From assembly GCF_002844555.1 (NCBI RefSeq), contig NZ_PJNI01000020.1, forward strand, positions 1 to 43,269: a stretch of DNA of 43,269 nucleotides. The letters are read 5' to 3'. Made by a program: the position numbers and the translations under genes. This document shows, in pieces, positions 1 through 33,030 of this stretch; the stretch's first letter is position 1, and the number at the start of each line of letters is the position of its first letter. The notes under the pieces were generated by a model. It had not been told where the DNA came from, ran no database searches, and saw nothing but the letters and a program-made list of their open reading frames with translations. This stretch comes from Brumimicrobium salinarum (lineage in GTDB: Bacteria > Bacteroidota > Bacteroidia > Flavobacteriales_D > Crocinitomicaceae).

Positions 1-1749
1 ACAATAACCTATACAGTTACTGGAACAGGTGGTTGTTCAGATGCTACAGCAACACGAACAGTAACCGTAGATCCTCTACCAACAGTAACCATCCCATCAA
101 GCGGAATTCTTTGTGAAGGAGCGACTTTAAACGTAACTCCTGCAACGGGTGGAACATGGGCAAGTAGTGATGTGAGTGTAGTTACGATCACAAACGGTGG
201 AGTGGTAACAGGTGTTTCTGAGGGAACAGCGGACATGGTTTTCACATCGACATCAACAGGTTGTTCTAGTACACCAGGAGATGGAACCATCACCGTTAAT
301 CCATTGCCTACCTTTACAGTAGCATTAACAGATCCTAGTTCTTGTGGTGCAACTGATGGTAACATTACAATATCTGGATTAAATACATCAACAAGTTATG
401 ATGTATCAATAGCTTCTGGAGCACTAAACACTCAAACTTCAAATGCTGCAGGAGAAATTGTACTCTCAGGATTAGGAGCTGGTGGTTATTCTCCAATAGA
501 AGTTGTTTTAAACGGTTGTTCAACAATTGACAACACAGTGTATGATTTAAACGATCCTTCTTCACCTACAATTACAGTTCCTTCTGGAGGTGTTATTTGT
601 GAAGGAGAAACCTTAAATCTACTTCCATCAACTGGTGGAACATGGACAAGCAGTAATCCATCTGTAGCTACAATTGATAATGCTGGACTTTTAACAGGTA
701 TTTCTGCTGGTAATACTACAGTAATTTATACCGAGACTGCATCAGGTTGCTCAAGTATGGCTGCAGCTGGAAGTATAACTGTGAATCCAACACCATCGGT
801 AACACTCCCTTCTGGTGGAAATGTATGTGAGGGAGCAACTTTAAATTTATCACCTTCAACAGGCGGAACATGGTCAAGTAGTGATGCAAATATAGCTACA
901 ATCACAAATGGTGGTCTAGTTACAGGAGTCGCTCAAGGAACAACTAATGTCATTTTTACATCAACAACAACGGGTTGTTCTAGTTCAGCAGCAGCAGGAA
1001 CAATCACAGTGAATCCAATACCAACAATTACAGTACCTGCAAATAATTTAGTTTGTGAAGGTGCTACATTGAATTTAGAACCAACATCTGGTGGTACTTG
1101 GTCAACTAATGATGCAAGTATAGCTATAATTACAAATGATGGTGAAGTTACAGGAGTTGCTCAAGGCACAACAGAGATGATATTTACCAATACGACAACT
1201 GGATGCTCTAGTAATGAATCATCAGGAACAATAGACGTAAACGCAGCTCCTATGCTTACGATAGAAGAAATTATTTGTAATAAATTAGAAGGCAAATATT
1301 CGGTTGAGTATACAACAAATCCAGAAGCTACTATAACAGCAAGTTTAGGGAACGTTACACCCACGTCTATAACTGACATTCCAAATAATCAGGAGGTGGA
1401 GATTATGGCAACAACAGATGGTTGCCCTTCAATTACAGAGACAGTAATTACGAATGACTGTATCGAAATTACAATTGACATTTCAAATGGTGTATCTCCG
1501 AATGGCGATGGTTTAAATGATTTCTTTGAAGTAACGAATTTGGAAAATTATCCGAACAACAGCATCCTTATATTTAACAGATGGGGCGATAAAGTATTTG
1601 AAGAAGCACCTTATAAAAATAGCTGGGAAGGACAAAACAATTCAGGTGGACTTGGAGAAAACAAACTACCAGCAGGAACATACTTTTACATACTTAAACT
1701 AGATGATAATCAAGATCCTATTAAAGGATATATAGAATTAAAAAGATAA
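1..1749 (+). CDS. Secreted Ig-like repeat protein with T9SS type B sorting domain (5' partial)
   Basis: The reading frame is open from the first base of the window, so the N-terminus and signal peptide lie outside; 582 codons are visible. The visible part holds four related repeats of about 76 residues (bases 82-309, 568-795, 796-1023, 1024-1251). Each has the pattern CEGxTLN, GGTW, a Big_2-like 'ATI..G.VTG...GTT' core, 'TGCSS' and a closing 'ITVNP'. A different domain (310-567) separates the first repeat from the other three. Bases 1462-1746 encode a gliding-motility-associated C-terminal domain: 'NGVSPNGDGLNDFF', 'IFNRWGDKVF', 'LPAGTYFY'. In Bacteroidota this type B domain directs export through the type IX secretion system and retention at the surface. 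The PorP/SprF gene begins 22 bp downstream, which fits a cargo/anchor operon. The ligand is unknown; an adhesin is the likeliest role. Confidence 0.9.
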   Translation, partial: TITYTVTGTGGCSDATATRTVTVDPLPTVTIPSSGILCEGATLNVTPATGGTWASSDVSVVTITNGGVVTGVSEGTADMVFTSTSTGCSSTPGDGTITVNPLPTFTVALTDPSSCGATDGNITISGLNTSTSYDVSIASGALNTQTSNAAGEIVLSGLGAGGYSPIEVVLNGCSTIDNTVYDLNDPSSPTITVPSGGVICEGETLNLLPSTGGTWTSSNPSVATIDNAGLLTGISAGNTTVIYTETASGCSSMAAAGSITVNPTPSVTLPSGGNVCEGATLNLSPSTGGTWSSSDANIATITNGGLVTGVAQGTTNVIFTSTTTGCSSSAAAGTITVNPIPTITVPANNLVCEGATLNLEPTSGGTWSTNDASIAIITNDGEVTGVAQGTTEMIFTNTTTGCSSNESSGTIDVNAAPMLTIEEIICNKLEGKYSVEYTTNPEATITASLGNVTPTSITDIPNNQEVEIMATTDGCPSITETVITNDCIEITIDISNGVSPNGDGLNDFFEVTNLENYPNNSILIFNRWGDKVFEEAPYKNSWEGQNNSGGLGENKLPAGTYFYILKLDDNQDPIKGYIELKR

Positions 1750-1771
1750 AAATAACTTAAAAGCAATCATC

Positions 1772-2689
1772 ATGAATAAACTACTAGTCGGAAGCTTTTT
1801 ATTGTTTTTGACCTCATCATTTTTGTTGGGTCAGAATAAATTAAATATAACACAATATATGATCCACCAACCCATATTAAATATGGCTTCCATTGGTGGG
1901 AACAACACAATCAATGCTGCGCTGGTTCATCGCCAACAATGGGTCGGATTTGAAGGAGCGCCAGCTACATCATTTTTTAGTGTTAATTCACCTATAAAGA
2001 CAACAAATTTGCATATAGGAGGAATAGCTTCATTTGATAGAATTGGATCTAATTCAATTACAAATATCAATCTTGGTGTTGCCTATCGAATGAAGTTGAA
2101 TACTAAAAATTACTTATCATTATCTTTGAAAGGTGGAATTACAAATACTAGTTCTGATTATTCGACTTTATCACTAAAAGATGAGATTGACCCCAAGTTC
2201 TCCTCAACATCAGTAAATGAGCTCCAACCAGACTTTGGATTCAGCGCTTATTTCTTTTCAAGAAAATATTACATAGGTTTGGCCATTCCATCCTTAATAA
2301 GAAACTCTAACTTTTATACAGAAAATCAACTCGTAATACCGCAAGATTTTCATTATTTTACTACAGCTGGTTATGAGTTTAACTTAAGTAATTCATTGGA
2401 CCTAGGCATTTCAACCTTGATAAAAGGAGTTTTAGGATCACCTGTTCAAGCTGATTTAAATGCACGTTTACTTTATAAAGAATTTTTAGGTATAGGTGTT
2501 TCTTACAGATCTTCAAATGATATAGCACTATTGATGTCGGTTAAAATGTTTGATAAACTTACGCTTGCATACAGTTATGATCTAGGAATATCTGAAATTT
2601 CTAGATATCATAGTAATACACATGAAATAATGTTGACTTTTGATACTCCATCTAGAGATCTATTAAAAGTTGCATCTCCACGATTCTAA
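1772..2689 (+). CDS. PorP/SprF family type IX secretion outer-membrane protein
   Basis: The protein has 305 residues and a signal peptide (about residues 1-21, ending SSFLLGQ). The family signature follows: 'QYMIHQPILNM', then 'HRQQWVGFEGAP' and 'SVNSPI'. The rest is alternating hydrophobic beta-barrel-like sequence ending in a terminal aromatic (SPRF), as in Bacteroidota outer-membrane barrels. PorP/SprF proteins are needed for secretion or attachment of specific type B cargo, for example SprF with SprB in Flavobacterium. It sits between a type B cargo gene (22 bp upstream) and a PorE-like gene (24 bp downstream). It is a clear paralogue of the protein at 9929-10843; the N-terminal signature differs at only a few positions. 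Confidence 0.93.
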   Translation: MNKLLVGSFLLFLTSSFLLGQNKLNITQYMIHQPILNMASIGGNNTINAALVHRQQWVGFEGAPATSFFSVNSPIKTTNLHIGGIASFDRIGSNSITNINLGVAYRMKLNTKNYLSLSLKGGITNTSSDYSTLSLKDEIDPKFSSTSVNELQPDFGFSAYFFSRKYYIGLAIPSLIRNSNFYTENQLVIPQDFHYFTTAGYEFNLSNSLDLGISTLIKGVLGSPVQADLNARLLYKEFLGIGVSYRSSNDIALLMSVKMFDKLTLAYSYDLGISEISRYHSNTHEIMLTFDTPSRDLLKVASPRF

Positions 2690-2713
2690 CACAACTCTAT
2701 TTAAAATCTGATT

Positions 2714-4837
2714 ATGAAAAATTTATTATTAATGGTTTTAATAATTGCCTATGCAACGTCTGCTAAAGGGCAAAGTAAAGCTAATAATTATTATGAGGCT
2801 GGATATTACAAAGAAGCAAGTATAATATTTGAAAAAGAAATCAAGAAAGATAAAGGGAATAATAAAATGCTCCAGCTAAAACTTGCTGACAGCTACTTCC
2901 ATTTAAAGAAATTTGAAAGTAGTATTAAACTTTATGAAGATCTTTATAAGAGAAGTATCAAAGATTCAATTGTCTTAATAAGACTAGCTGAGTTAAAGAG
3001 AATGTTTTGCGATTTTGATGAATCACAACAATATTATTCTGAATACGATGACGTTTTTTTATCGAAACAAAATAAAGCGAAATTCAATTTTGAAAAAATA
3101 ATTGAATCTAAAATTAATTTTCCGCAATCAAACATTAATACTTCAAGTTCTGCTGAACTTGAAATTCTTAAATTACCACAAGTGGATAAGGGAATGGGAT
3201 ATACATTTCTTGGCAATGGAGATCTATTAGGAGCAATCAGTCATAAAGATAAAGAAGCGCGATCAACATTTACTACATTAGGTGTCTTCAATTCTGCATC
3301 AGACTTTCAACAGGTAAAAACATTCAGCTTCAATAAGGAAACATCTTTCTTCAATGCGTTTCCTAGCTATTGCAAACAATCAAACACTTTATACTTCACA
3401 GCTAACATCAGCGATAAGAGATTATCATTTAAAGAAAGACAGAATGTACTTCAGATTTACTCAATAAACTTATCTTCAGAAGATAACGAACCTGAACTTT
3501 TAAGCTTTAACATGCCAGATTATAATTTTACACATCCGGCTATTTCAGATAACGGAAAGAGATTATATTTCGTTTCTAACAAACCTGGAGGTATTGGTGG
3601 ATTCGATGTTTATTATGTAAATAAAACAAATGATGGATGGTCTGAAATAAAAAATTGTGGTGAGCATATAAACACTCCTTTTGATGAGCTAACGCCTTAT
3701 TCAAAAGAAGAGACTTTATATTTTTCAAGCTATGGACATAATAATTATGGCGGATCAGACATTTTTAAAAGCCAAACAAATAAAGGTGAGTTTTTAAAAG
3801 CCACTAACCTGGGACAACCCATCAATAGTTGTATGAATGACTTTTCATTTATTTTAGCACCTGACTCTGGTGAAGGACTATTTACTTCTGATCGAAATCA
3901 CAAAGATGAAAATAAAGATGATGTCTATAAGGTGACTTTCCCTGTAATTAAAAGACTAATTACAGATGAACGTTCAAAAGATCCAATCTCCGATGTGTCT
4001 ATTTTATTTAACGATGAGACAAGTTTTCTATCTGACGATCAAGGAAAATGGACAAAACAAATTTCACTCGGGACGGATACTGAGATAACGTTTGACCATC
4101 CTTATTACAATACGAAAACTTTAAAATATAAGAATCTTTCCATTGAGAATTTAAATGAGTTAAAACTTGTCTCTCTTACTCCAAACTTATTGATTGGTCA
4201 GGTGAAAGATGACATTACAGGTAATACATTAAAAGGAGCGTCTGTATCATTATATGAAAAAACTAAGAACGATAAGTGGGAGCTTGTGGAAGTTAAAAAA
4301 ACGGATGGTGATGGGAAATGGGAGTTTCATGTTCGCAAAGACAGAACTCATAAAGTTGTCCTTGAAAAAGACAATTACCTAACACATAATGAAATTATTC
4401 CACGCAAAAATGAAAATGAAAAATTAAGAAATGAGGCTTTAACTAGAATTAATCCTTTTTTAATGAAATATGAAGTCAAGAAAGATTTGATTATTCAAAT
4501 TGATAATATATATTTCGACTTTAATAGTTCATATATTCGTGAAGAATCATTTCCAGTACTTGATAAAGTAAAGAATTTTTTAAATGAAAATCCAAATATA
4601 AATATAGAACTTAGTGCTCACACGGACTGTATAGGAAAAGATAATTATAACTTATGGTTATCTGACAGAAGGGCAAGTAGAAGTAAAAAATATTTAGTAG
4701 AGGCAGGTATAGATCCAAAAAGGATAAAAGCTAAAGGATATGGAGAACAAAAAATGATTGTTAAGGATTGTGAATTACAAAAAAGAGATGATAAAGAAGC
4801 TCAAAAAAACAGAAGAGTCGAAGTTAAAATCTTGTAA
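2714..4837 (+). CDS. PorE-like OmpA family protein (TPR, propeller, CRD, OmpA_C)
   Basis: The protein has 707 residues. A signal peptide (residues 1-19, ending SAKGQ) lacks a lipobox Cys, so it should be soluble in the periplasm rather than a lipoprotein. Domains in order: TPR-like helices (about 22-115); PD40/WD40 beta-propeller blades (about 160-410, with 'AISDNGKRLYFVSN' and 'LYFSSYGHNNYGGSDIF'); a carboxypeptidase-regulatory-like domain (about 490-570); OmpA_C (about 595-707). The OmpA part keeps the peptidoglycan-binding pattern 'AHTD..G...YN..LSDRRA'. The same domain order is known from PorE of Porphyromonas, which links the type IX secretion outer-membrane complex to peptidoglycan. The gene follows PorP/SprF by 24 bp and has a full paralogue at 10863-12962. 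The PorE-like role is inferred from architecture. Confidence 0.88.
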   Translation: MKNLLLMVLIIAYATSAKGQSKANNYYEAGYYKEASIIFEKEIKKDKGNNKMLQLKLADSYFHLKKFESSIKLYEDLYKRSIKDSIVLIRLAELKRMFCDFDESQQYYSEYDDVFLSKQNKAKFNFEKIIESKINFPQSNINTSSSAELEILKLPQVDKGMGYTFLGNGDLLGAISHKDKEARSTFTTLGVFNSASDFQQVKTFSFNKETSFFNAFPSYCKQSNTLYFTANISDKRLSFKERQNVLQIYSINLSSEDNEPELLSFNMPDYNFTHPAISDNGKRLYFVSNKPGGIGGFDVYYVNKTNDGWSEIKNCGEHINTPFDELTPYSKEETLYFSSYGHNNYGGSDIFKSQTNKGEFLKATNLGQPINSCMNDFSFILAPDSGEGLFTSDRNHKDENKDDVYKVTFPVIKRLITDERSKDPISDVSILFNDETSFLSDDQGKWTKQISLGTDTEITFDHPYYNTKTLKYKNLSIENLNELKLVSLTPNLLIGQVKDDITGNTLKGASVSLYEKTKNDKWELVEVKKTDGDGKWEFHVRKDRTHKVVLEKDNYLTHNEIIPRKNENEKLRNEALTRINPFLMKYEVKKDLIIQIDNIYFDFNSSYIREESFPVLDKVKNFLNENPNINIELSAHTDCIGKDNYNLWLSDRRASRSKKYLVEAGIDPKRIKAKGYGEQKMIVKDCELQKRDDKEAQKNRRVEVKIL

Positions 4838-4848
4838 ATAAAAAGATT

Positions 4849-5355
4849 ATGGTCATTAACAATCAATACCTTAGTGTTTTTTCAGATCGCTATACTCAAA
4901 TTTATAGGGAATCCTGTATTATTAAACATGAAGAAATTACCAATATTTTGAATGATGTAAAATCGTCCTTAGACATTGATTTTGTTACAAAAAAACGCAT
5001 CTACTCTATTGTTAATGAACTTCTTGAAAACACAATGCTTCATAGCGATCATAGCGAAAGCGAGGTTGAATTAGTTATACTAAAAACGGATGACTGCTAT
5101 AGAATAATTACCATAAACACTATATCTGTTGACGAGAGACACAATCTTTTATCTTATTCTACTAATATTAATTCATTAAGCATCCAAGAATTAAAAAATC
5201 AATACAAAGAAAAATTATTGAATGGTGAAATAAACGACAAAGGCACAATCGGTGTAGGTATGGAACTAATTCGCTTACAATCCAATAATAAAATATTAAT
5301 CTCAACTGATGATAATAGCAATGTTATTATCGATGTCAGACTTGACAAGTTATAA
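4849..5355 (+). CDS. SiaB family protein kinase-like protein (GHKL fold)
   Basis: The protein has 168 residues, no signal peptide and should be cytoplasmic. Two GHKL ATP-binding elements are visible: an N-box at about residues 56-70 ('VNELLENTMLHSD') and a glycine-rich lid near the C-terminus ('GTIGVGMELI'). Size and motifs fit the SiaB family (DUF6272), which in Pseudomonas phosphorylates SiaC. The next gene (5382-5777) is a SiaC homologue, which strongly supports the call. The start lies 11 bp after the PorE-like stop codon, so the kinase probably shares that transcript. No PP2C phosphatase (SiaA) or diguanylate cyclase (SiaD) gene is in the window. A generic anti-sigma-factor-like ATPase is the alternative. 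Confidence 0.8.
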   Translation: MVINNQYLSVFSDRYTQIYRESCIIKHEEITNILNDVKSSLDIDFVTKKRIYSIVNELLENTMLHSDHSESEVELVILKTDDCYRIITINTISVDERHNLLSYSTNINSLSIQELKNQYKEKLLNGEINDKGTIGVGMELIRLQSNNKILISTDDNSNVIIDVRLDKL

Positions 5356-5381
5356 ACTTTAACCCAATTAACATAAATCAT

Positions 5382-5777
5382 ATGCAACGTTTAAAAATTG
5401 ATCCAACAGCTAGTAGTTTTTTTGTTGATTTAAATGCTGATACTGGAATATTTAATTTTCAAGGAGAATCAAGACCCGAAAATGCACCCAGCTTTTTTGA
5501 ACCCATTATAGCGTGGCTAATCACCTATAGAAATACAATAGAAAAAGACAAAGACAGTCACCACTTAAAGGTGATTTTCAAACTCGATTATTTTAATTCA
5601 ACATCTACAAAGTATATAGTTGATATAGCCAAATTACTTAAATCGATTGATGACCTTCCCAATGTAAACCTGGCAACTGAATGGTTTTATAAAAGTATAG
5701 ATGAAGACATCAGAGATAGTGGTAATGAACTTATAGACTGGACGGGCCTAAAAATAAAATTAATTCCCTACGATTAA
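5382..5777 (+). CDS. SiaC family regulatory phosphoprotein (DUF1987)
   Basis: The protein has 131 residues and no signal peptide. It shows the DUF1987/SiaC pattern: an N-terminal 'FNFQGESRPENAPSFFEPI' segment and a central 'LDYFNSTSTKYIVDIAKLL'. In Pseudomonas SiaC the Thr after 'YFN' is phosphorylated by SiaB; the aligned residue here is Ser73, followed by Thr74, Ser75 and Thr76. The gene lies 26 bp after the SiaB-like kinase, so the two form a kinase/substrate pair. In Pseudomonas unphosphorylated SiaC activates the diguanylate cyclase SiaD; no such partner is seen here, so the output is unknown. It is transcribed toward the response regulator at 5805-6458, with 27 bp between stop codons. 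Confidence 0.85.
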   Translation: MQRLKIDPTASSFFVDLNADTGIFNFQGESRPENAPSFFEPIIAWLITYRNTIEKDKDSHHLKVIFKLDYFNSTSTKYIVDIAKLLKSIDDLPNVNLATEWFYKSIDEDIRDSGNELIDWTGLKIKLIPYD

Positions 5778-5804
5778 TTTCCATTTCAAGGGAAAGTGTT
5801 CCTT

Positions 5805-6458
5805 TTAAATTAAATACTTTAATACATTTCTATTCTTATTTACCCAATCATTGAAATAAATATTTGATTCATTGCCCATCTTTGATAAAATCCTATTTTT
5901 ATAATTGTTTATCGATTTTTGCTGAATATTCATTTGCGTAGCAACTTCATTTGTGTTTAATCCTTCGAAAAAATGAGTCAATACCTCACGCTCTCTCTTT
6001 GTAAGTGTATTCAGCACAGGAAGAACTTTTTTAATGAATTGATTACTATTATGAAAATCAAGAGAAAACCATTCTGAACAGATAAACAAGTTAGATGTAT
6101 AAACCCTAAGTATTACTTCCTTTAAACTTTCAGGAGAGATGTTTTTTGTGATATAGCCATTCGCGCCATATTCTTTGGCAATAAATATAAACTCTTTTGC
6201 CGTTTGTGATGTTAACATTATGATCTTAGAACTTAACCCCATCTCTTTTAATCGGATTAATGTTTTAATTCCATTTAGCTCATTCAGTTTGATACCTGAA
6301 ATGATAACATCGGGTTGTTCCTCTTTTGCTTTACTTAATAAATCAATTCCAGAAGCGGACTCCAAAAAGTTTGTTCTTGGAAAAGAATCTATCAAAGTAT
6401 TTATAAGACATTTTCTAAATAATTCGTGTTTATCTGCTATTAGAATGGTTGAAATCAT
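5805..6458 (-). CDS. LuxR/NarL-type response regulator with degenerate receiver domain
   Basis: The protein has 217 residues: a receiver-like domain (about 3-120) and a C-terminal LuxR helix-turn-helix ('LTKREREVLTHFFEGL..NEVATQMNIQQKSINNYKNRILSKMG', about 152-195). The receiver has Asp9 but Lys10 where an acidic partner is usual. At the phospho-acceptor position the sequence is 'DVIISGIKLNELNG', so Gly55 replaces the Asp. Thr83 and Lys105 are kept. The domain should therefore not be phosphorylated in the normal way and may act as a constitutive or protein-controlled switch. It lies between the two secretion cassettes, convergent with siaC-like and divergent from the S74-domain gene, so it is a candidate regulator of either. 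No histidine kinase gene is adjacent. Confidence 0.88.
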   Translation of the reverse strand: MISTILIADKHELFRKCLINTLIDSFPRTNFLESASGIDLLSKAKEEQPDVIISGIKLNELNGIKTLIRLKEMGLSSKIIMLTSQTAKEFIFIAKEYGANGYITKNISPESLKEVILRVYTSNLFICSEWFSLDFHNSNQFIKKVLPVLNTLTKREREVLTHFFEGLNTNEVATQMNIQQKSINNYKNRILSKMGNESNIYFNDWVNKNRNVLKYLI

Positions 6459-6657
6459 CTAATCAAATATACTAAAAAAGTTTAAAGGTAAGATTGTTAG
6501 AATAGAACTTAAATAAAATGAATTAATATTCAAACTTATAGAAATAAACATGTGGATAATTTGAATCTAATATACAAACAAACACATTTAAAATTGTATG
6601 GGCTAGATATCACTCATCAATCCAATATACAAACATGAAAATCAAAACATTAAAAAT

Positions 6658-6674
6658 ATTGAGGGGTTAACACT
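6658..6674 (+). promoter_or_regulatory. 17-bp motif shared with the region upstream of the PKD-protein gene
   Basis: The 17 bases ATTGAGGGGTTAACACT occur here and, identical, at 33031-33047. The core contains the palindrome GTTAAC. This copy ends 24 bp before a -7-like TACATTTG (6699-6706) and 59 bp before the S74-domain gene. It occupies roughly the place where a -33 element would be expected and no good TTTG is present. An activator site or alternative-sigma element is inferred. Confidence 0.4.
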
Positions 6675-6698
6675 TCTCAATAATTACTAACAACATGT

Positions 6699-6706
6699 TA
6701 CATTTG
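6699..6706 (+). promoter_or_regulatory. Candidate -7 element for the S74-domain/cassette 2 operon
   Basis: TACATTTG matches the Bacteroidota -7 consensus TAnnTTTG and lies 27 bp upstream of the start codon at 6734. No TTTG is present about 19 bp upstream; the GGGGTTAACAC motif is there instead. Confidence 0.45.
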
Positions 6707-6733
6707 TAATAAATTAACACAATATATAACACA

Positions 6734-8689
6734 ATGCAGAAGCCAAACTTAAATTTAAAAGCCTTAATATGGATTTTTATATTCATTATTTCAACAGCTC
6801 ACGTGACCGCGCAAAACGTGGGAATAAACGAAGAAAACCCAACGAATACGCTACACATAAAACCGCTTAACACAGGAGATGAACCCTTAAGAATTGAAGG
6901 GTTAACCGCTGTGAGCGCTGGGGAAAATGCTTTATTAATCCACAACCCTTCAGTTGGTGTGGTACGCTATATTACCATTAATAACTTATCTGATTCTATA
7001 TTAGAAAGCTTAGTGGTTAATCAAGTTTTTGTAGATAGTATGGTGAGTATGATTTATAATTATGGAGATACCTTACTACACAACGAAACATTTCTGACCA
7101 GTTTAGGTGATTCAATTGATACACATCTGGATTCTCTCACATTAAATGGGAACATCTTAAATGGATGGGTGGATGGAAATAATACTAGCGTTGACCTCAC
7201 TAGCTTAACAGGTGTAAATCAAAACGATATTATCAATATCATTTATAATAACGGTGATACATTATTAAATAATACTACATTTTTGAACAATTTGCAAGAT
7301 TCTATTGACACACATCTCGATTCTTTGGTTTTAAATGGTACATTGCTCTCAGGTTGGGTTGACGGAGCTAATAATACAGTTGATCTTGGCAACCTTATCG
7401 GTACAGATAATCAAAACCTAACGGGTGCAACTTTAAGTGGTACAACATTGACCATAGATATTCAAAATGGAACTTCCACATCAGTAGATCTTTCTTCGTT
7501 GATAGGAACAGATAATCAAGACCTAACAAATGCAACCCTTTCAGGAAATATTCTAACCATTGATATACAGAACGGAGCTTCCGTAAATGTTGATTTATCC
7601 AGTTTAGTTGGATCAGATAGTCAAAACTTAACCTTAACTGGAGACAATTTGAGTATTTCGAATGGAAACACTGTTATGTTAACTTCCCTGAAAGATCATG
7701 ATTGGTATGAATCGGGTACAACAAATCAAGCGACGTCCATCAATCAAAGTATATTTACAAATGGAGATGTAGGAATAGGAAACAACAACCCGTTATCAAA
7801 ATTACATCTATCTGGAAACCCTTTGGTAATGCGTCTTGAGAATACTTCTGGAGGAACTTGGGGATTAAATTCCACAAATGCTGGTGATTTTCGTTTGGAA
7901 AACATTTCAGGATCATCTACAGCGATAACAGCTTTAGGAAGCAATGACTATGTAGGAATTGGAACAAACAATCCTACACACAGACTTGAAGTAAACGGTG
8001 AAGTATTAATTGATAATGGAACAAACGATGGTGCAAGATTAATTTTCAGAGGAGGAACGGGAGCCACTGAAGAATACCGTGCGCGAGTTGGACTGACAGG
8101 TAACCTAGGCTTCTTTCCAATTGAAGCAGGATTACCGGGCTACATGGGAGAAGCATTAGTGTTAACTCAAGATGCTAAAGTTGGAGTTGGTGATCATCAA
8201 GCACCATTATATGCACTTGAGTTAAAAAATCAAATGAGCTTATATGGGCAGGCAAGGGCTACAGGGTGGCTTACATATTCGGATGAACGAATTAAAAGTA
8301 ACCGTCAATCAATTGGAGATGCAGTAGGCACCATTAAAAAGCTTAATCCTGTTTATTATTTCCAACATAATTCTGAAAAAACAGAAAATGGATTGGCTAT
8401 CTCAGATAAAGGCGGGTATTCTTACGGGTTCTTAGCGCAAGAGCTTTATAAAGTAGTACCTGAAATGGTATTTAAACCAAAGAATGACTCCGATGAATTG
8501 TGGAGTGTTGATTACATTAAATTAATTCCAATTCTAACAAAAGCAATACAGGAACAACAACTTGAAATTGACGCTTTGAAAACTGAAAATCAACAGTTGG
8601 TAGAACAACAAAATAAATTTGAAGAGTTGGAAAACGAAGTTGAAGAACTAAAGAATCAAATAAAAACACTAATTGAAAATACTAAATAA
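6734..8689 (+). CDS. Tail-fibre-like surface protein with peptidase S74 chaperone domain
   Basis: The protein has 651 residues. A signal peptide (about 1-26, ending TAHVTAQ) is followed by 'NVGINEENPTNTLHI', a typical start of Bacteroidota fibre proteins. Residues about 90-310 are degenerate repeats: 'NNGDTLLNNTTFL..LQDSIDTHLDSL' occurs twice and 'GTDNQ(N/D)LT.ATLSG..LTIDIQNG' repeats at least twice. 'DVGIGNNNPLSKLHLSG' motifs follow. The C-terminus (about 510-651) is a peptidase S74 / intramolecular chaperone domain with 'SDERIK' beginning at Ser516, where family members cleave themselves, and a coiled coil (about 600-650). S74 domains trimerise phage fibres and are released by self-cleavage. 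The next gene starts 1 bp after the stop, so this protein belongs to the cassette 2 operon. Confidence 0.85.
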   Translation: MQKPNLNLKALIWIFIFIISTAHVTAQNVGINEENPTNTLHIKPLNTGDEPLRIEGLTAVSAGENALLIHNPSVGVVRYITINNLSDSILESLVVNQVFVDSMVSMIYNYGDTLLHNETFLTSLGDSIDTHLDSLTLNGNILNGWVDGNNTSVDLTSLTGVNQNDIINIIYNNGDTLLNNTTFLNNLQDSIDTHLDSLVLNGTLLSGWVDGANNTVDLGNLIGTDNQNLTGATLSGTTLTIDIQNGTSTSVDLSSLIGTDNQDLTNATLSGNILTIDIQNGASVNVDLSSLVGSDSQNLTLTGDNLSISNGNTVMLTSLKDHDWYESGTTNQATSINQSIFTNGDVGIGNNNPLSKLHLSGNPLVMRLENTSGGTWGLNSTNAGDFRLENISGSSTAITALGSNDYVGIGTNNPTHRLEVNGEVLIDNGTNDGARLIFRGGTGATEEYRARVGLTGNLGFFPIEAGLPGYMGEALVLTQDAKVGVGDHQAPLYALELKNQMSLYGQARATGWLTYSDERIKSNRQSIGDAVGTIKKLNPVYYFQHNSEKTENGLAISDKGGYSYGFLAQELYKVVPEMVFKPKNDSDELWSVDYIKLIPILTKAIQEQQLEIDALKTENQQLVEQQNKFEELENEVEELKNQIKTLIENTK

Positions 8690-8690
8690 C

Positions 8691-9926
8691 ATGCGAGTTT
8701 TACTTTTTATTGTTATTCTAACTTTTGTTCATAAGCTATCAATAGCACAAGATATTACTCTAGTGAATTCGGAATTAACCGTACAATCAGGTGCTGTAAT
8801 TACAATTCAAGGAGGCGTGAAAGCCGAATCAAATGGGCGTATTGATAATTCAGGAGAAATTCAAATTCGGAATGATATTGAAAACAACAGTGGTGGAGTT
8901 TTGTTTACCAATCAAAACGCTGGAGAAGTACTATTGTATGGTAACAATCAAGAAATTTTAGGTATAGATTCAACTGTTTTTTACAATTTATATTTTTCAG
9001 GCAACACACTTGATGAAAAGTCATTTCTAACATCAGCAAGCATATTGAATGAATTAGATATTAATAATCAAATATTAGAAACAAATGTAAACAAGGTGTA
9101 TTTACTCAATCCTAGTTTAAACTCCTTATTTGTTGATCAAGGATTTATTTCATCAAATACCTTAGGTGGTTACTTTGTAAGAGCTACCAATTCATCGAAT
9201 GAATATCTTTTCCCTACTGGCGCAACGAATTTATCACCCAATCATAGAGTGGTATTGATAACGCCTGATGATAATTCGACTAATCTTTTTCAAGTGCGTC
9301 TTTCCAATATTGGAAGTTCTATGGATAATAGCGGAACAAGTGCTTCTGGCGCCACTGGTCCATTTGATATAAATCTAAAAACAAACGATCTTGGTGAAAT
9401 AAACAATGCGTATTATCATAATATTCATCAATTATCTGGTAATTCATCTGCAGAAATCAAACTATTTTGGAATGTAACAGATGGAAATTTTAAAACGATT
9501 GCACAATGGAGAGGTACTCAATTTTATGATGCACTAGCAGATTTAGAATTAGATAATTATTTTAATCTTGATCGCGCCTTGAGTATTAAAAACTATACTC
9601 AAATTCAAGATGATGTTTTTGCGCTAGCAGATGTAAACATTGAAATAAACATACCGAATGGAGTTTCTGCCAATAATGACGGAATAAATGATCTTTTTTA
9701 TATCGAAAGTTTGGAATACTATCCAAACAACTCTTTAACCATATTTAATAGATGGGGAGATGAAGTTTTTTCTGCGCAGCCTTATGAAAATGATTGGTCG
9801 GGACAAAGCAATGTTCAGGGAGCAATTGGTGGTGATGACTTACCTGCGGGAACATACTATTATTTATTTAAGCCCGATGATGAAAGCGAAGTATTGAAAG
9901 GTTTTATTGAATTTAAAAAGAAATAA
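8691..9926 (+). CDS. Secreted protein with T9SS type B sorting domain
   Basis: The ATG at 8691 is chosen because it directly begins a signal peptide (MRVLLFIVILTFVHKLSIAQ). A TTG at 8673 would add six residues and overlap the previous gene. The product has 411 residues. After the signal comes a beta-rich region ('SGAVITIQGGVKAESNGRIDN', then 'GEVLLYGNNQEI') resembling beta-helix or passenger sequences. From about residue 319 there is a gliding-motility-associated C-terminal domain: 'NGVSANNDGINDLF', 'IFNRWGDEVF', 'LPAGTYYY'. This domain is close in sequence to that of the protein ending at 1749, although the rest of the two proteins differs. It is expected to be exported by the type IX system together with the PorP/SprF encoded 2 bp downstream. 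Confidence 0.88.
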   Translation: MRVLLFIVILTFVHKLSIAQDITLVNSELTVQSGAVITIQGGVKAESNGRIDNSGEIQIRNDIENNSGGVLFTNQNAGEVLLYGNNQEILGIDSTVFYNLYFSGNTLDEKSFLTSASILNELDINNQILETNVNKVYLLNPSLNSLFVDQGFISSNTLGGYFVRATNSSNEYLFPTGATNLSPNHRVVLITPDDNSTNLFQVRLSNIGSSMDNSGTSASGATGPFDINLKTNDLGEINNAYYHNIHQLSGNSSAEIKLFWNVTDGNFKTIAQWRGTQFYDALADLELDNYFNLDRALSIKNYTQIQDDVFALADVNIEINIPNGVSANNDGINDLFYIESLEYYPNNSLTIFNRWGDEVFSAQPYENDWSGQSNVQGAIGGDDLPAGTYYYLFKPDDESEVLKGFIEFKKK

Positions 9927-9928
9927 AG

Positions 9929-10843
9929 ATGAGAAATTTTATTGTATCTGTTATTATCATTTTGAATTGCTTACTCTCTTTTAGCCAAAATCAACATTTC
10001 GTTACACAATATATGATTCATCAGCCAATTTTAAACATGGCTGCTATTGCCGCTAACGATCATATCAATGTAGCCGGTTTACACAGGCAACAGTGGGTCG
10101 GATTTGAGGGGGCTCCAAAAACATCATTATTTAGTATTAATGCGCCTATAAAATCCACAAAATTACATATTGGAGGTATAGTCGCTTATGATCAAATAGG
10201 AGCTAACGCAATCACTAATGTAGATTTGGGAATTGCTTATCGTATGAAATTATCGCGTAATTTATTCTTATCACTCGCATTAAAAGGTGGCATGATGAAT
10301 ACTGCGGCAGATTATTCTGAACTTTACCTGAACACGCTAAACGATCCTTCGTTTCCAGAAACAGCTACCAACAAAATCCAACCAAGTTTTGGGTTTAGTA
10401 CTTATTTATTTTCAGACAATTATTATGTCGGTATTGCTGTACCAACATTTCTTAACAACACAACATTTTATGATAATGAGCAACGCTTTACGCCAAAAGA
10501 CTTTCATTACTTTCTAACAGGTGGCTACCAATTTCAACTTTCAAAATCCTTTAAATTAGGTGTCTCAACATTATTAAAAGGAGTTATTGCGGCACCGTTA
10601 CAAGCTGATTTCAATGCACGATTGCTATACAATGACTTTATAGGTTTAGGCCTAACCTACCGAACTTCTAATGATTTGGCAGCTATATTTTCAATAAAAG
10701 CTTTTAATCAGCTTACAATCTCTTACAGTTACGACTTTGGCATGTCTGAATTATCCAGACACCATAGTAATACACACGAAATCATGCTCGTTTTCGATGC
10801 ACCTTCAAGAAATCTTATTCCAGTTACCTCACCCAGGTTTTAA
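9929..10843 (+). CDS. PorP/SprF family type IX secretion outer-membrane protein (second copy)
   Basis: The protein has 304 residues and a signal peptide (about 1-19, ending SFSQ). The signatures 'QYMIHQPILNMAAI', 'HRQQWVGFEGAPKTS' and 'SINAPIKSTKLHIGGI' match those of the paralogue at 1772-2689, and both proteins end SPRF. The start is 2 bp after the preceding stop, with a purine-rich ribosome site inside the end of that gene, which suggests translational coupling. As in cassette 1, it follows a type B sorting-domain protein and precedes a PorE-like protein. This implies that each PorP/SprF serves its own cargo. Confidence 0.93.
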   Translation: MRNFIVSVIIILNCLLSFSQNQHFVTQYMIHQPILNMAAIAANDHINVAGLHRQQWVGFEGAPKTSLFSINAPIKSTKLHIGGIVAYDQIGANAITNVDLGIAYRMKLSRNLFLSLALKGGMMNTAADYSELYLNTLNDPSFPETATNKIQPSFGFSTYLFSDNYYVGIAVPTFLNNTTFYDNEQRFTPKDFHYFLTGGYQFQLSKSFKLGVSTLLKGVIAAPLQADFNARLLYNDFIGLGLTYRTSNDLAAIFSIKAFNQLTISYSYDFGMSELSRHHSNTHEIMLVFDAPSRNLIPVTSPRF

Positions 10844-10862
10844 AATTTAAAGCTTCACAACC

Positions 10863-12962
10863 ATGTTAAAAACAGTTACGTTACTTATTTCTATCTTATT
10901 AGCTGGTGTAATCCAAGCTCAAACTACAGCAATGGAATATTATAATGCGAAGTACTTCAAAGAAGCCAGCTTAAGATTTGAAAAAACATTGGCTGAAGAA
11001 GGACAATTAGAAAATGATGAGCTAAAAAAACTGGCTGATTGTTATTATCAAATGAACAGAGTAGCATCAAGTGTAAAAGCTTACAAAGAGATATACAAGG
11101 AAAATGAGCAAGACACCACAGCTTTAAAAAGATTGGTAGAACTCATGAGGATGCAGTGTAATTATGATGCAGCAGACAAATACTTAGCACAGCTCAACTA
11201 CAGCTCTATGAGAAACAAGCGATTTAGAAATGATAGGATCCTGTTTCCGCAAAACAATAGTAAAAAAAATAAGGCTTTAACAATAAAACAAATTAATATC
11301 CCAAATATCCATCAAGGTATGGGATACACATTTAAAGAAAACGGCGATTTAATTGCAGGATTACAATTAGAAAACAAAGAAGATCAAACAACATTTACAA
11401 CATTGGGAACAATAGATAAAGGCAGCAGCGTTCAGCATATTCAACCTTTACCTTTTGAGGAAGAAACTCCCTTTTTTAATGCCTATCCGAGTTTTTGTAG
11501 CCAGTCAAACAAAATCTATTTCACAGCAAATATAAACAGTAAAAAAAGATCATTCCGTGAGCAGAAAAATGTTCTACAATTGTTCGAAATGGATATTACG
11601 GAAGGTCGCGCTTCTTCTACTCTACTTTCATTTAATCAAGAAGCGTATAATTTTACCCATCCCGCAATATCTGCAGATGGTAAGCGCTTATATTTTGTTT
11701 CTGACAAACCAAATGGATTTGGTGGTTTTGATGTTTATTATGTTCAAAAAACCGAAACGGGTTGGTCAGAGATAATTAATTGTGGTAAAAATGTGAATAC
11801 AGCTTACGACGAAATAACACCTTTTGTTAAAAATGATTCCTTGTTTTATTCGAGCTATGGACATGAAAACCATGGAGGTTCTGATGTGTTTTTAAGTCAA
11901 ATCAATCAGAATGAATTCACCGAAGCTAAAAATTTAGGTTTTCCAATAAATAGCTGTCAAGATGATTTTTCATTTGTACTTTCACCAGACATTTCTTTCG
12001 GACTTTTAACTTCTAACAGAAACTATAATGATGCCAATCAAGATGATGTATTTCAAATTAAATTTCCAGCTTATGACTATTTTGTAAAGGATACCGTTTC
12101 CAACCTTCCAATTGCAGCGGTAGATATTTTAATTAATAAAAAAACCGCAACCCAAACTGATACTTTAGGAAAATGGGAAAAATTAATCCAAAATGAACAA
12201 AAATTAAAGATCACCTATGATCATCCTTATTACGTAACAAAAACACTATCTTTTAACGAGAAATCTACTATGATTCATAAAAGTTTAAAACAAGTACAAC
12301 TACAACCTGTACTTATCTCTGGGAGAGTTATAGATGATATCACAGGAAATGAAATTAGCGATATTGAAGTTCAACTTCTTGTTAAGTCAGAAGATGGAAC
12401 CTGGAATTTTGTAGAAAAAAAACAAACTGATCTTGAAGGAAAATGGTCATTTCATGTACGTAAGGACAAAGCCTACAAAGTGATTTTTGAAAAGGACGAT
12501 TATATAGCGCATGAAGAAATAATTCCTGAATTTGATGGACCTCAAGAAATCAGAGAGGAGGTTTTGTCTCGTATGAATCCATTCTCAATGAAGTATGAAG
12601 CCAAGAAGGATTTAGTAATTCAAATTGACAATATTTATTTCGATTTTAACAGTTCTTACATCAGAGAAGACTCCTATCCTGTTTTGGATAAGGTAAAAGG
12701 GTTTTTAGATGATAATCCTGACGTTAAAATTGAATTAAGCGCACATACGGACTGCCTTGGAAAAGATGATTATAATTTATGGTTATCCGATCGGAGAGCA
12801 AAAAGCAGTAAAAATTATTTGGTAAAGTTAGGCGTTTCTCCCAATCGCATTAAAGCTAAAGGTTATGGTGAACAGAGAATGATTGTTACAGACTGCGAAT
12901 TACAAAAAAGAGATGACAATGAAGCCCAAAAAAACAGAAGGGTTGAAGTTAAAGTTTTATAG
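10863..12962 (+). CDS. PorE-like OmpA family protein (second copy)
   Basis: The protein has 699 residues and a signal peptide (about 1-19, ending GVIQAQ) without a lipobox. Domain order equals that of the 2714-4837 paralogue: TPR-like helices (about 22-115), PD40-type propeller ('AISADGKRLYFVSDKPNGFGG', about 160-405), a carboxypeptidase-regulatory-like domain (about 480-560) and OmpA_C (about 590-699). The OmpA part is nearly the same as in the paralogue ('IQIDNIYFDFNSSYIRE', 'ELSAHTDC.GKD.YNLWLSDRRA'), while the TPR region is more divergent. Expected role: periplasmic anchor between the PorP/SprF complex and peptidoglycan. The gene ends 42 bp before the convergent DUF5686 gene; no clear terminator hairpin is seen there. 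Confidence 0.88.
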   Translation: MLKTVTLLISILLAGVIQAQTTAMEYYNAKYFKEASLRFEKTLAEEGQLENDELKKLADCYYQMNRVASSVKAYKEIYKENEQDTTALKRLVELMRMQCNYDAADKYLAQLNYSSMRNKRFRNDRILFPQNNSKKNKALTIKQINIPNIHQGMGYTFKENGDLIAGLQLENKEDQTTFTTLGTIDKGSSVQHIQPLPFEEETPFFNAYPSFCSQSNKIYFTANINSKKRSFREQKNVLQLFEMDITEGRASSTLLSFNQEAYNFTHPAISADGKRLYFVSDKPNGFGGFDVYYVQKTETGWSEIINCGKNVNTAYDEITPFVKNDSLFYSSYGHENHGGSDVFLSQINQNEFTEAKNLGFPINSCQDDFSFVLSPDISFGLLTSNRNYNDANQDDVFQIKFPAYDYFVKDTVSNLPIAAVDILINKKTATQTDTLGKWEKLIQNEQKLKITYDHPYYVTKTLSFNEKSTMIHKSLKQVQLQPVLISGRVIDDITGNEISDIEVQLLVKSEDGTWNFVEKKQTDLEGKWSFHVRKDKAYKVIFEKDDYIAHEEIIPEFDGPQEIREEVLSRMNPFSMKYEAKKDLVIQIDNIYFDFNSSYIREDSYPVLDKVKGFLDDNPDVKIELSAHTDCLGKDDYNLWLSDRRAKSSKNYLVKLGVSPNRIKAKGYGEQRMIVTDCELQKRDDNEAQKNRRVEVKVL

Positions 12963-30042: not shown

Positions 30043-32955
30043 TCATCTCAACACATTAACATGTCCAGTATGCACGTGGCGTTTGTCGGACATTGTTTCT
30101 TTAAATTCTATTTTCCAAACATAAGTACCTTCTTTTACAATTTTTCGGCTATTTGACCCATAGGTACCTGACCAACCTTTTGTCGTATCATGAGATTCAA
30201 ATACAAGTTCTCCCCAACGATTAAAAATATATAAGGTAAAATTTTGCGGATCGAATCCATGCGTAAAAACAGGCTGAAATGTTTCATTGTATTTATCTTT
30301 ATCTGGCGTAAAGGTGTTGGGCACATAAAAAATAATTTTGTCTAAAACTGTTACAACCTGTACAGTTGTATCTGTACATCCTTCATCTGTGAAAGCAATC
30401 AGCTGTGATGTATATGAATCTGGCTCTAATGGGAATTCAACTATTGGATTGATATCATTTGTTGGGCCATGAAATTCGATATTCCATTGATAGAAATCAG
30501 CAAAGGAAGAAGTGTTCATGAACTCAACTTCAGGATCCATAACATTTGGTTCTTCGGGCGTATAGTAAAAGTCTGCTATGGGATTATGAAACACCTCAAT
30601 ATAATTGTCTTTGCTTAGTGTATCTAAACATCCTTCATTACTTTCAACTATTAAGTTTACATCATAAAAATCAGTTTGACTTCCAAGATTTTCAAAACAA
30701 TCAGAAAACGACTTATCATTCGCATAAGTTGTTCCATCACTTAAAGACCAATAGTAATTTGATATTTCAGATGGTGCATTAATAGTAGAAATAGAATTTA
30801 TAGAGGGGCAAATTGGAGAGCATCCATAAAGATCAAATCCAGTAAAGTTAGCAACTGGTTTTGGATGCACAACAACTGCTAGGCTTGTATCGTGTTGACA
30901 TCCGTTATTAGATTCTACAGACAAGTTAACTTGGTAAGTTCCATCATTTTGGTAAAAATGCCCAGGATTTTGAACATTGCTATTGTTACCATCATTGAAA
31001 TTCCAATCCCATAAGGTTACAGAGTTACTGGTATAATTATTACTTACCGTAGATAAATCTGTAAAATCAGTCTCAAACCCCAAGCAAACATCTGTAGCTG
31101 AAAATTGAGCTACTGGTAAAGGATAAACTGTTGCATCGATAGTTATACTGTCTTGACAACCTTTATTGGTTGTAATTAAGAGTTCCGTAGGATAAATACC
31201 TTCGTTTGGGTAGGTATGATTTGTATTTTCAGAGTTTGCTGTTGCTCCGTCACCAAATTCCCAACTGTAATTTACAATAGCGTCATCTGTTACGGGATTA
31301 ACGGAGGAAGTATTCGTAAAGATATTATTTTGCTTGAAACAAATCGGATCTACGGTAAAATTAGCTGTTGGAAGCGCGTTAATTGTCACTTGTTGGGTGA
31401 TTTCATTCGAACAACCATGCTCATTAACAACGGTATGACGTAAATCGAATTGACCATCATTCGGATATTCATACATCAATTGCGACCCAGTTGCATCGTC
31501 TGTTCCATCATTTGTATAGTCCCATGAATACGATGAAATTTGATATCCTAAACCATCAGCAGTAGAATTGGCAATTAAAGTTTCTTCATCACAAACATCA
31601 TCAAAAGTGAAATTAGCGATTGGGTTTTCGTAGATAAGTAAATCACCACTAACCGATTTTGAACAGCCCTTATCATCGACTACTGTTAAATCATAATCAT
31701 ACAAGCCCTCGCTAGAAAAAGACGTTGTAAAGCTTTGATTGATCTCAGTGAGCGTTCCATCTACCAGCCAATCCCATGAGATAATCGGATTTTGATGTGT
31801 TCCAACCTCTCCAATGGACACCAATTCATCAATACAGCCGTTATCCGCATCAATTACAGGATCAGGTAATGGATTTACGCGATATTCCATCGTAATTAAT
31901 GAAGCAGCACTACACTCAATATTCTGAGGTAAACATTCTAATGTATATAAATCTGCTTGAGGAGCTGTAAAACAACGAGAGTTACTTAATACATTTCCAT
32001 TACTATCCATCCAATTGTAAGTAGCCATATTCGCAGGACCACATAGTTCATCTGTAGCAGTAATTGGATCTAAACAAGACTCTTCTGTCATTTCGGAATT
32101 CACAGGACAATCAATATCAATTAAAACATAAGCCCAATCAGGTCCAGGTCCACACCACTCTACACGAAATACTGCGGTGACAGCCTGTCCAGCATAACCA
32201 CTTAAGTCCATAGAAACAGTATTCCAATCTGAGTATGTTACAGGGTGGGTTCCTGGACTATCCCCATCTGCTTGCGGATTATAAAAAGAAGCAGGATTCG
32301 GAGTTTCAACGAAAGTATTCACACCAACTGCTCCTTGATCAGAAGAGTAAAAACATTCATATTGCGGACATCCAAGTTTTGCTCCGTTTTGATCGTAAAA
32401 TTCAACCCATAATTTAGCTGCTTGATTAGCAGGATGTGGAAAATTGAAAATACTCATTGCAAAGTGAAAGTTAAACAATGTTGTTCCAGTTGCAGGTACA
32501 TTAATCACTCGATCCAACCGTCCATCTCTACAGCAGTCTCTATCACTACTGATTTTTGCCGAATTATTACCACCACCAGGATAAACCCAAGGGTAACCGC
32601 CATAAGGGTCGACACCATTGTTTACAACAGTAACCGCCCCTGTAGCATTCCATCCTGATAAAGTTCCATCTTCAAAATCCCAATTACCTCCAGCACAATC
32701 AAAAACATTCGCACGCTGATTAAGAATAGGCCCTGGAGAGCCATAAAATCCTAGCTCGTATTTTTTATCAATAAATTTTCTTCTTGCTGATTCAAGATAA
32801 TCTTCTAATTCAGAAGAGTCCACATCATGCATAAGAATATGTGCTTTTTCTTCCGCCTCATCAAAACCATTGAGTGAATCTGAATAAGATTGAGCATTCA
32901 ACCCATTACTCAATAATAAACATGTCAAAGTCAATAAAAATATAGCGCTCTTCAT
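30043..32955 (-). CDS. Large secreted PKD-repeat protein with T9SS type B sorting domain
   Basis: The ATG at 32955 starts a signal peptide (MKSAIFLLTLTCLLLSNGLNAQ); a TTG two codons upstream is less likely. The product has 970 residues. Residues about 60-270 form a Cys-rich jelly-roll-like domain ('WNTVSMDLSGYAGQAVTAVFRVEWCGPG'), of the kind found in MAM or carbohydrate-binding modules. About six PKD-type repeats follow (about 345-880; for example 'SWEFGDGATANSENTNHTYPNEGIY' and 'WDWNFNDGNNSNVQNPGHFYQNDGTY'). The last 90 residues are a gliding-motility-associated C-terminal domain ('PNTFTPDKDKYNETF', 'IFNRWGELVFES', 'EGTYVWKIEFK'). A surface adhesin or matrix protein is likely. Unlike the two cassettes, no PorP/SprF gene is adjacent. 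Confidence 0.9.
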   Translation of the reverse strand: MKSAIFLLTLTCLLLSNGLNAQSYSDSLNGFDEAEEKAHILMHDVDSSELEDYLESARRKFIDKKYELGFYGSPGPILNQRANVFDCAGGNWDFEDGTLSGWNATGAVTVVNNGVDPYGGYPWVYPGGGNNSAKISSDRDCCRDGRLDRVINVPATGTTLFNFHFAMSIFNFPHPANQAAKLWVEFYDQNGAKLGCPQYECFYSSDQGAVGVNTFVETPNPASFYNPQADGDSPGTHPVTYSDWNTVSMDLSGYAGQAVTAVFRVEWCGPGPDWAYVLIDIDCPVNSEMTEESCLDPITATDELCGPANMATYNWMDSNGNVLSNSRCFTAPQADLYTLECLPQNIECSAASLITMEYRVNPLPDPVIDADNGCIDELVSIGEVGTHQNPIISWDWLVDGTLTEINQSFTTSFSSEGLYDYDLTVVDDKGCSKSVSGDLLIYENPIANFTFDDVCDEETLIANSTADGLGYQISSYSWDYTNDGTDDATGSQLMYEYPNDGQFDLRHTVVNEHGCSNEITQQVTINALPTANFTVDPICFKQNNIFTNTSSVNPVTDDAIVNYSWEFGDGATANSENTNHTYPNEGIYPTELLITTNKGCQDSITIDATVYPLPVAQFSATDVCLGFETDFTDLSTVSNNYTSNSVTLWDWNFNDGNNSNVQNPGHFYQNDGTYQVNLSVESNNGCQHDTSLAVVVHPKPVANFTGFDLYGCSPICPSINSISTINAPSEISNYYWSLSDGTTYANDKSFSDCFENLGSQTDFYDVNLIVESNEGCLDTLSKDNYIEVFHNPIADFYYTPEEPNVMDPEVEFMNTSSFADFYQWNIEFHGPTNDINPIVEFPLEPDSYTSQLIAFTDEGCTDTTVQVVTVLDKIIFYVPNTFTPDKDKYNETFQPVFTHGFDPQNFTLYIFNRWGELVFESHDTTKGWSGTYGSNSRKIVKEGTYVWKIEFKETMSDKRHVHTGHVNVLR

Positions 32956-33030
32956 AATCAAACAGATTTTAACAAATAAAATTAAAGCATCTCGATCGCT
33001 ACGTCAAAAAAACGAATCAATTTGTTTGAA

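Follow-up and report, generated by a model that had tools for sequence, protein, structure and literature searches.

Cassettes in which the gene for a type B cargo of the type IX secretion system (T9SS) is followed by genes for a PorP-like carrier and a PorE-like protein are known from Flavobacterium johnsoniae, and the idea that such cargo is held by a static anchor was published with them (PMC9143113, PMC12618676). By one account there are five operons of this kind (PMC12618676) and by another six porP-like genes beside a porE-like gene (PMC9143113). The operon Fjoh_3952-3951-3950 is an example, in which the C-terminal domain (CTD) of the cargo Fjoh_3952 forms static foci and a PorE homologue is encoded next door (PMC9143113, PMC12618676). 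In Porphyromonas gingivalis, PG1035, PorP and PorE form a complex in which the cargo is bound to PorP, and PorP to a protein with the domain order TPR, propeller, CRD and OmpA (PMC9143113); the genes serve the only type B cargo of that organism. The SprB-SprF pair of the gliding apparatus likewise comprises a type B cargo and an adjacent PorP-like carrier, but SprF has no PorE-like neighbour, and the cysteines of its Cys-Xaa-Cys (CXC) tail are bound to GldK (PMC12635249). Here we describe two neighbouring cassettes of the F. johnsoniae type in Brumimicrobium salinarum.

The stretch analysed, which we call the window, comprises 43,269 nucleotides from base 1 of contig NZ_PJNI01000020.1 (C13) in a 3.41 Mb draft genome (G000); labels beginning with G, C and L denote genomes, contigs and loci of our survey. 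The order type B cargo, PorP/SprF and PorE-like protein occurs twice on the + strand, at 1-4837 (cassette 1) and 8691-12962 (cassette 2), where an earlier note on this DNA had placed it. That note called the cassettes tandem; this must be qualified, since they are separated by 3.85 kb with four genes, one of them on the opposite strand. The cassette type is that known from F. johnsoniae and is not new. In contrast to the F. johnsoniae operons, the window holds two paralogous cassettes with different passengers, and genes for SiaB-like and SiaC-family proteins, a response regulator and a fibre-like protein lie between them. We consider it probable that each is a static-display cassette, made of a cargo, its own PorP carrier and a PorE-like anchor, that it consists of two exchangeable halves, and that in the lineage of cassette 1 the passenger was swapped and the SiaB-like/SiaC pair was added. 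What would be new in this well-formed cassette pair of known type is thus the likely exchange of a passenger, along with two partner gene sets; our literature search, confined to listings, found no report of passenger exchange between paralogous cassettes, or of a SiaB/SiaC or fibre neighbour of T9SS cassettes.

The two carriers, encoded at 1772..2689 and 9929..10843 (both +), match the PorP/SprF barrel models above cut-off along their full length (PF11751, 190.7 and 197.7 bits; TIGR03519, 214.7 and 215.9 bits) and are 58% identical (175/301). The PorE-like copies (2714..4837 and 10863..12962, both +) are 52% identical (371/708). Both pairs are paralogues, as had been proposed, and the further claim that the cargo passengers are unrelated outside the CTD also stands: the cargos align over their last 135 amino acids only (46%), and the passengers compared alone gave no match (best E 0.64). 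At the DNA level the cassettes align in three stretches (66-74%), the first of which starts at the CTD. The cargo of cassette 1 (1..1749, +) consists of Big_2 immunoglobulin (Ig)-like repeats (81.2 bits) and then a type B CTD at about residues 492-582 (CHU_C 105.7 bits, TIGR04131 59.3); its 5′ end is cut by the contig edge, and its N-terminus is absent from the window. The cargo of cassette 2 (8691..9926, +) also carries a type B CTD (CHU_C 93.2 bits, TIGR04131 47.2), and both CTD models are above cut-off in both cargos. Its start is preferably the ATG at 8691; the list of open reading frames (ORFs) used the in-frame TTG at 8673. An AlphaFold model of this cargo was too poor for use (mean predicted local distance difference test score, pLDDT, 34.0), and a search of PDB sequences gave no match for PorP.

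The PorE-like proteins match PD40 (31.4 bits for cassette 1, 32.9 for cassette 2) and OmpA (65.1 and 67.0 bits) above cut-off, and CarboxypepD_reg (CRD) and TPR below it. In the AlphaFold model of the cassette 1 copy (mean pLDDT 84.8, predicted template modelling score 0.62), helices at residues 2-139 are followed by strands at 148-418, beta structure continues to about residue 565 and the C-terminal domain is mixed; the top Foldseek matches include TolB and 6top, the solved C-terminal domain of PorE. The OmpA domain also matches 6top, the peptidoglycan-binding domain of PorE, by sequence (E 8e-17). The TPR-propeller-CRD-OmpA order read earlier from the sequence therefore holds in outline. By the NCBIfam model NF052230, whose cut-off is 600 bits, the two proteins are not PorE, scoring 232.7 and 233.8 bits, and in contrast to PorE of P. 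gingivalis both lack the lipoprotein Cys. No protein of the B. salinarum genome reaches 600 bits with this model, the best (404 bits) being at C4:69444-71480.

To place the cassettes, we took a census of the surroundings of PorP matches in nine genomes, G000 and eight relatives picked mostly for their few contigs, and retained 159 of 160 PorP ORFs (at least 200 amino acids). By an automatic rule, which takes a CTD at most 1.5 kb upstream and a PorE-like gene at most 2.5 kb downstream, each on the strand of the PorP gene, 32 of the 159 PorPs have both neighbours, 78 have the CTD only, 49 have neither and none has PorE only. Since PorE-like neighbours occur only beside PorPs with a CTD gene, the PorE-like gene is a property of cargo-carrying PorPs. 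In G000 itself, PorP/SprF is matched 17 times and the type B CTD 37 times; 12 of its PorPs follow a CTD gene, and six of these then have a PorE-like gene (two in the window and one each on C65, C4, C23 and C2). The triple on C2, whose OmpA domain matched weakly, was added by hand and brings the total to 33. Paired cassettes are not unusual: a five-gene block of cargo, PorP, cargo, PorP with a CPRL tail, and PorE is kept in five genomes of two families (G000, G007, G013, G018 and G026; L042, L110, L132, L153 and L162).

Trees of the 33 triples give the same order, ((cassette 1, NORP2 cassette), cassette 2), for all three parts, with supports of 99/98 and 100/99 for PorP, 93/91 and 100/100 for the PorE-like protein and 98/88 and 94/86 for the CTD. 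The NORP2 cassette (L027) is the single cassette of Fluviicola sp. NORP2; G006, of the same genus code as G000, has a contig (C31) whose first 15 kb are identical to a NORP2 record. Distance matrices of the 33 triples correlate at 0.54 (PorP-PorE), 0.85 (PorP-CTD) and 0.38 (PorE-CTD), values each reached by 0/1000 permutations in tests that are uncorrected for species relatedness, and nearest neighbours agree in 22/33, 23/33 and 21/33 triples, respectively. For the 25 triples without tail Cys, the PorE-CTD correlation falls to 0.27 (reached by 24/1000 permutations). When eight more PorE relatives and some carriers were added, the order of PorP and of the PorE-like proteins was unchanged; the CTD of cassette 2 joined that of G279 (68/88), or that of G011 once G011 was included (81/85), and holding the CTDs of cassettes 1, 2 and NORP2 together in this wider tree was not rejected (p 0.48). 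As a CTD of about 100 residues resolves poorly and the added outgroups shift the cassette 2 CTD with weak support, its fine order cannot carry claims. The proposal that CTD, PorP and PorE-like protein co-segregate by cassette is thus borne out by the 33 triples, with a weakly supported fine order of CTDs when more outgroups are present.

By the same trees the duplication is old. The NORP2 cassette is an orthologue of cassette 1, and its region has the same gene order at 69.6% identity over 573 amino acids for the cargo, 71% for PorP, 59% for the PorE-like protein, 64% for the SiaB-like protein, 65% for SiaC and 59% for the response regulator. A recent tandem duplication within the lineage of the window is ruled out, because cassette 1 groups with the NORP2 cassette first; on the sequences compared, the window cassettes are old paralogues, neither recent nor sister copies. 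PorE relatives of this clade are rare, being found in 3/200 genomes of the family at E 1e-90 and in 8/399 genomes of the order at 1e-120. Outgroup cassettes carry cargo of the cassette 2 type, at 47% over 314 amino acids in G279, 40% over 418 in G249 and 40% over 352 in G259 (two of these three cargos are cut by contig ends), as does G011 (51% over 385), where a relative of the response regulator (34%) lies next to the related cassette. These are the nearest outgroups, so the derived state is probably the exposed part found in cassette 1 and NORP2. Thus cassette 1 probably exchanged its exposed part and cassette 2 probably retains the older cargo type. The earlier note had envisaged duplication followed by cargo exchange; the duplication proves to be old, with cassette 1 orthologous to that of NORP2, the exchange is likely, and to it can be added a direction, in that cassette 1 seems to have changed.

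Passengers are related in 59 of the 63 PorP pairs that share at least 50% identity, which is an upper figure, as repeats were left unmasked when passengers were compared and one pair shares a single cargo. The four exceptions are cassette 1/cassette 2, NORP2/cassette 2 and two pairs with L120 of G014; of the 11 such pairs that lie within one genome, that of the window alone has unrelated passengers. Several findings weigh against inherited units with a single, directed swap. Besides the unmasked repeats, several of the compared cargos are truncated where a region or contig ends. In the sister clade, four PorPs (G026 L209, G037 L190, and L150 and L158 of G013) carry other passengers, so repeated swaps could also produce the pattern, and swaps may be frequent. 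In G011 the PorE-like gene does not lie beside the related cargo-PorP pair. This last case, together with a report that some type B cargos of F. johnsoniae share one shuttle (PMC12618676), makes the earlier description of the cassettes as self-contained modules too strong. A foreign origin of cassette 2 found no sign in guanine plus cytosine content, the sole measure used, which shows nothing marked.

It is also conceivable that cassette 1 exchanged its complete cargo gene, along with the CTD, for that of a different type B cargo which suited the carrier by chance, in which case CTD and carrier would be no inherited unit. Beyond its NORP2 orthologue, the best passenger match of cassette 1 is indeed L102 of G006 (40% over 490-618 amino acids), which belongs with another PorP subclade (PorP 31% over 102 amino acids), and the strict pairing of the cassette 1 and cassette 2 CTDs is lost once outgroups are added. 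However, the CTD of cassette 1 is 57% identical to that of cassette 2 and 33% to that of L102, and every CTD tree keeps cassettes 1, 2 and NORP2 in one small clade (94/86; 66/77 with G279; 78/84 with G011). We therefore judge replacement of the whole cargo unlikely. A swap of the passenger in front of a retained CTD would amount to a natural experiment, with a new passenger given to an existing carrier-anchor pair, and would point to the CTD, not the passenger, as the seat of specificity.

Each cassette has candidate partner genes. Upstream of cassette 2, a fibre-like protein (6734..8689, +) ends one base before the cargo gene; it has an N-terminal NVGIN...P motif, a coiled coil and a C-terminal S74 chaperone domain (Peptidase_S74, 36.3 bits), and no CTD. 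The N-terminal VGI motif is found in four of the 1121 ORFs of at least 150 amino acids in the fetched regions, all four beside a cargo of the cassette 2 type. With the prediction stated first, seven more loci with this cargo type were then inspected: the strict VGI motif is beside five, a VGV variant with S74 beside one and neither beside the last. Among the eleven neighbour proteins, nine have S74 or collagen domains, one has RCC1 repeats and one has no domain match; a CTD was found in none of the eleven. An 11 kb region of G007 (L258, 2200-12916) holds two cargos of this type together with three fibre-like genes of the VGI kind.

Behind cassette 1, a gene for a SiaB-like protein (4849..5355, +) follows the PorE-like gene after 11 bp and is followed after 26 bp by one for a SiaC-family phosphoprotein (5382..5777, +); order and gaps are identical in NORP2. 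The former matches DUF6272 (PF19788, 62.2 bits against a cut-off of 26.6) and stays below the SiaB family kinase model NF038262 (44.7 bits, cut-off 85). The latter matches PF09345 (86.9 against 24.5 bits) and stays below the equivalog NF038265 (51.7 against 150). Its Ser73 follows YFN and aligns with LLYLNTSSIK, the peptide that holds Thr68 of SiaC (PMC7647112). In searches of PDB sequences, a profile of six sequences matched SiaC chains at E 8e-23, and the SiaB-like protein had no match. As in SiaABCD of Pseudomonas aeruginosa, the SiaB-like and SiaC-like genes stand side by side; unlike that system, the window has no adjacent SiaA phosphatase or SiaD cyclase, the putative acceptor is Ser instead of Thr, and the NCBIfam equivalog cut-offs are not reached. 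The SiaB-like subtype is confined to 2/200 genomes of the family, that of the window and NORP2, which score 328-337 bits with a model built from these same two sequences, the next best scoring 61. Both genomes also encode an ordinary SiaB-SiaC pair at another place.

The SiaB-like/SiaC pair could be a chance neighbour retained through the recent common descent of two species, an explanation to which we give somewhat less than an even chance. The pair stands behind PorE in two genomes of the same genus only, its SiaB-like member does not reach the NCBIfam cut-off, and among the 33 triples such a neighbour follows PorE only in these two orthologous ones. On the other hand, the order and the 11 and 26 bp gaps are unchanged although the proteins have diverged to 59-65% identity, and there are two possible parallels. 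In G013, a cargo-PorP-PorE triple is closely preceded by two SiaC genes together with genes for a response regulator and a hybrid kinase (L151, 10937-13600). In all four related cassettes of another genus (L250, L251, L252 and L253), a gene for a TPR-SpoIIE phosphatase-like protein lies 64-72 bp behind the PorE-like gene; this parallel is weak, as SpoIIE genes are also near other PorPs (five further regions), and for the same reason TPR-SpoIIE as a conserved third Sia part is kept as a lead only. With the fibre gene, the SiaB-like/SiaC pair would make two partner sets that can be named for T9SS cassettes.

As for the anchoring half, domains of the OmpA and SPOR kinds are known to bind peptidoglycan, and both occur fused to carriers. 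G037 encodes a natural PorP-OmpA fusion of 703 amino acids, 20 bp behind a type B cargo (L200, 3890-6001), and G013 a PorP-SPOR fusion directly behind a type B cargo (L159, 5030-6553; SPOR 28.8 bits, cut-off 21). Five more carriers of 466-501 amino acids (L047, L086, L111, L133 and L192) align with that of L159 along their C-termini and likewise stand directly behind a type B cargo, making six genomes in all; a SPOR scan that covered L159 and two of these found L159 alone above cut-off, one below it and one without a match. Such fusions support anchoring to peptidoglycan. Neither kind was met in our literature search, which did not target them by name. Furthermore, the last 40 residues of both window PorPs are free of Cys (the tails end in LLKVASPRF and LIPVTSPRF), in contrast to the CXC tail of SprF, and this would fit static display.

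Tail cysteines were also compared across the survey, in the 144 carriers of 280-420 amino acids (15/159 were left out). At least two tail Cys are present in 0/33 PorE-linked carriers versus 28/111 others. All nine genomes encode, 46-78 bp upstream of gldJ, a PorP/SprF-like carrier that ends in a CX11CPSF tail and has no cargo beside it (L045, at 4114-5100, and L083, L092, L114, L156, L123, L134, L172 and L188, at about 4.9-6.0 kb in each). It is a candidate for a track-bound carrier of orphan type B cargos and would suit the mechanism published for SprF, whose motif is CXC (PMC12635249). Several observations must be set against static anchoring of the window cargos and the markers proposed for it. 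The contrast in tail cysteines is not significant once relatedness is allowed for, as seven independent pairs show none. There is no contrast in carriers with at least one Cys among those linked to a CTD (8/33 versus 18/69). The CXC tail described for SprF is in no carrier here, CX11C being our own reading, and neither PorE-like copy has, in its first 30 residues, the lipoprotein Cys expected of PorE. The relation of tail Cys to PorE neighbour is accordingly a pattern, not a proven rule, and a strict rule by which a PorE neighbour and paired tail Cys exclude each other was not upheld as an evolutionary correlation.

Alternatively, the cassettes might encode mobile carriers that need no tail disulfide to move along the gliding track, with the PorE-like protein acting as an assembly factor. 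Short directed runs persist in SprF that lacks its Cys pair (PMC12635249), and a GldJ match above cut-off in G000 makes a gliding track likely. The OmpA domain, the PorP-OmpA and PorP-SPOR fusions, and the static behaviour published for the CTD of the PorE-linked Fjoh_3952 (PMC12618676) all argue for an anchor instead, and we hold mobile carriers to be very unlikely. Static display would turn the published conjecture that PorE-linked carriers are static and others ride the track into markers readable from sequence, namely a PorE neighbour or fused peptidoglycan-binding domain as against tail Cys next to gldJ.

In the static-display arrangement that we favour, each cassette would send one type B cargo through the translocon of the T9SS by means of a PorP-type carrier of its own, and after export this carrier would stay on the cargo CTD in the outer membrane. 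The PorE-like protein would bind this carrier in the periplasm and peptidoglycan through its OmpA domain, leaving the cargo fixed in place rather than riding the gliding track. CTD, PorP and PorE-like protein would be inherited together as the anchoring half, the passenger and its partner genes forming the exposed half. Cassette 2 would retain the older exposed half, the fibre-like gene with its passenger; the Ig-repeat passenger would have replaced the older one in front of the CTD in the lineage of cassette 1 and NORP2, where a SiaB-like/SiaC switch would also have been added behind PorE, probably tying expression or display to an internal signal. A bolder form, which as a whole we find rather improbable, holds that T9SS display is assembled from two interchangeable halves, the anchor being such a unit or a carrier fused to OmpA or SPOR, and that a swapped exposed half brings its partner genes with it. 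Cargo of the cassette 2 type would then be a surface dock for a trimeric fibre, S74-chaperoned or collagen-like, without a T9SS signal of its own, and adhesin display in the cassette 1 type would be timed by a phosphorylation switch made of the SiaB-like protein and SiaC.

The fourth gene between the cassettes, encoding a LuxR-type response regulator with Response_reg and GerE domains (5805..6458, −), is convergent with the SiaC gene. Promoter and terminator scans gave site numbers no higher than in shuffles. Further along the window, 30043-32961 encodes a third type B cargo, which has PKD domains but lacks an adjacent PorP; two relatives stand behind the NORP2 cassette (L050, 6948-13535).

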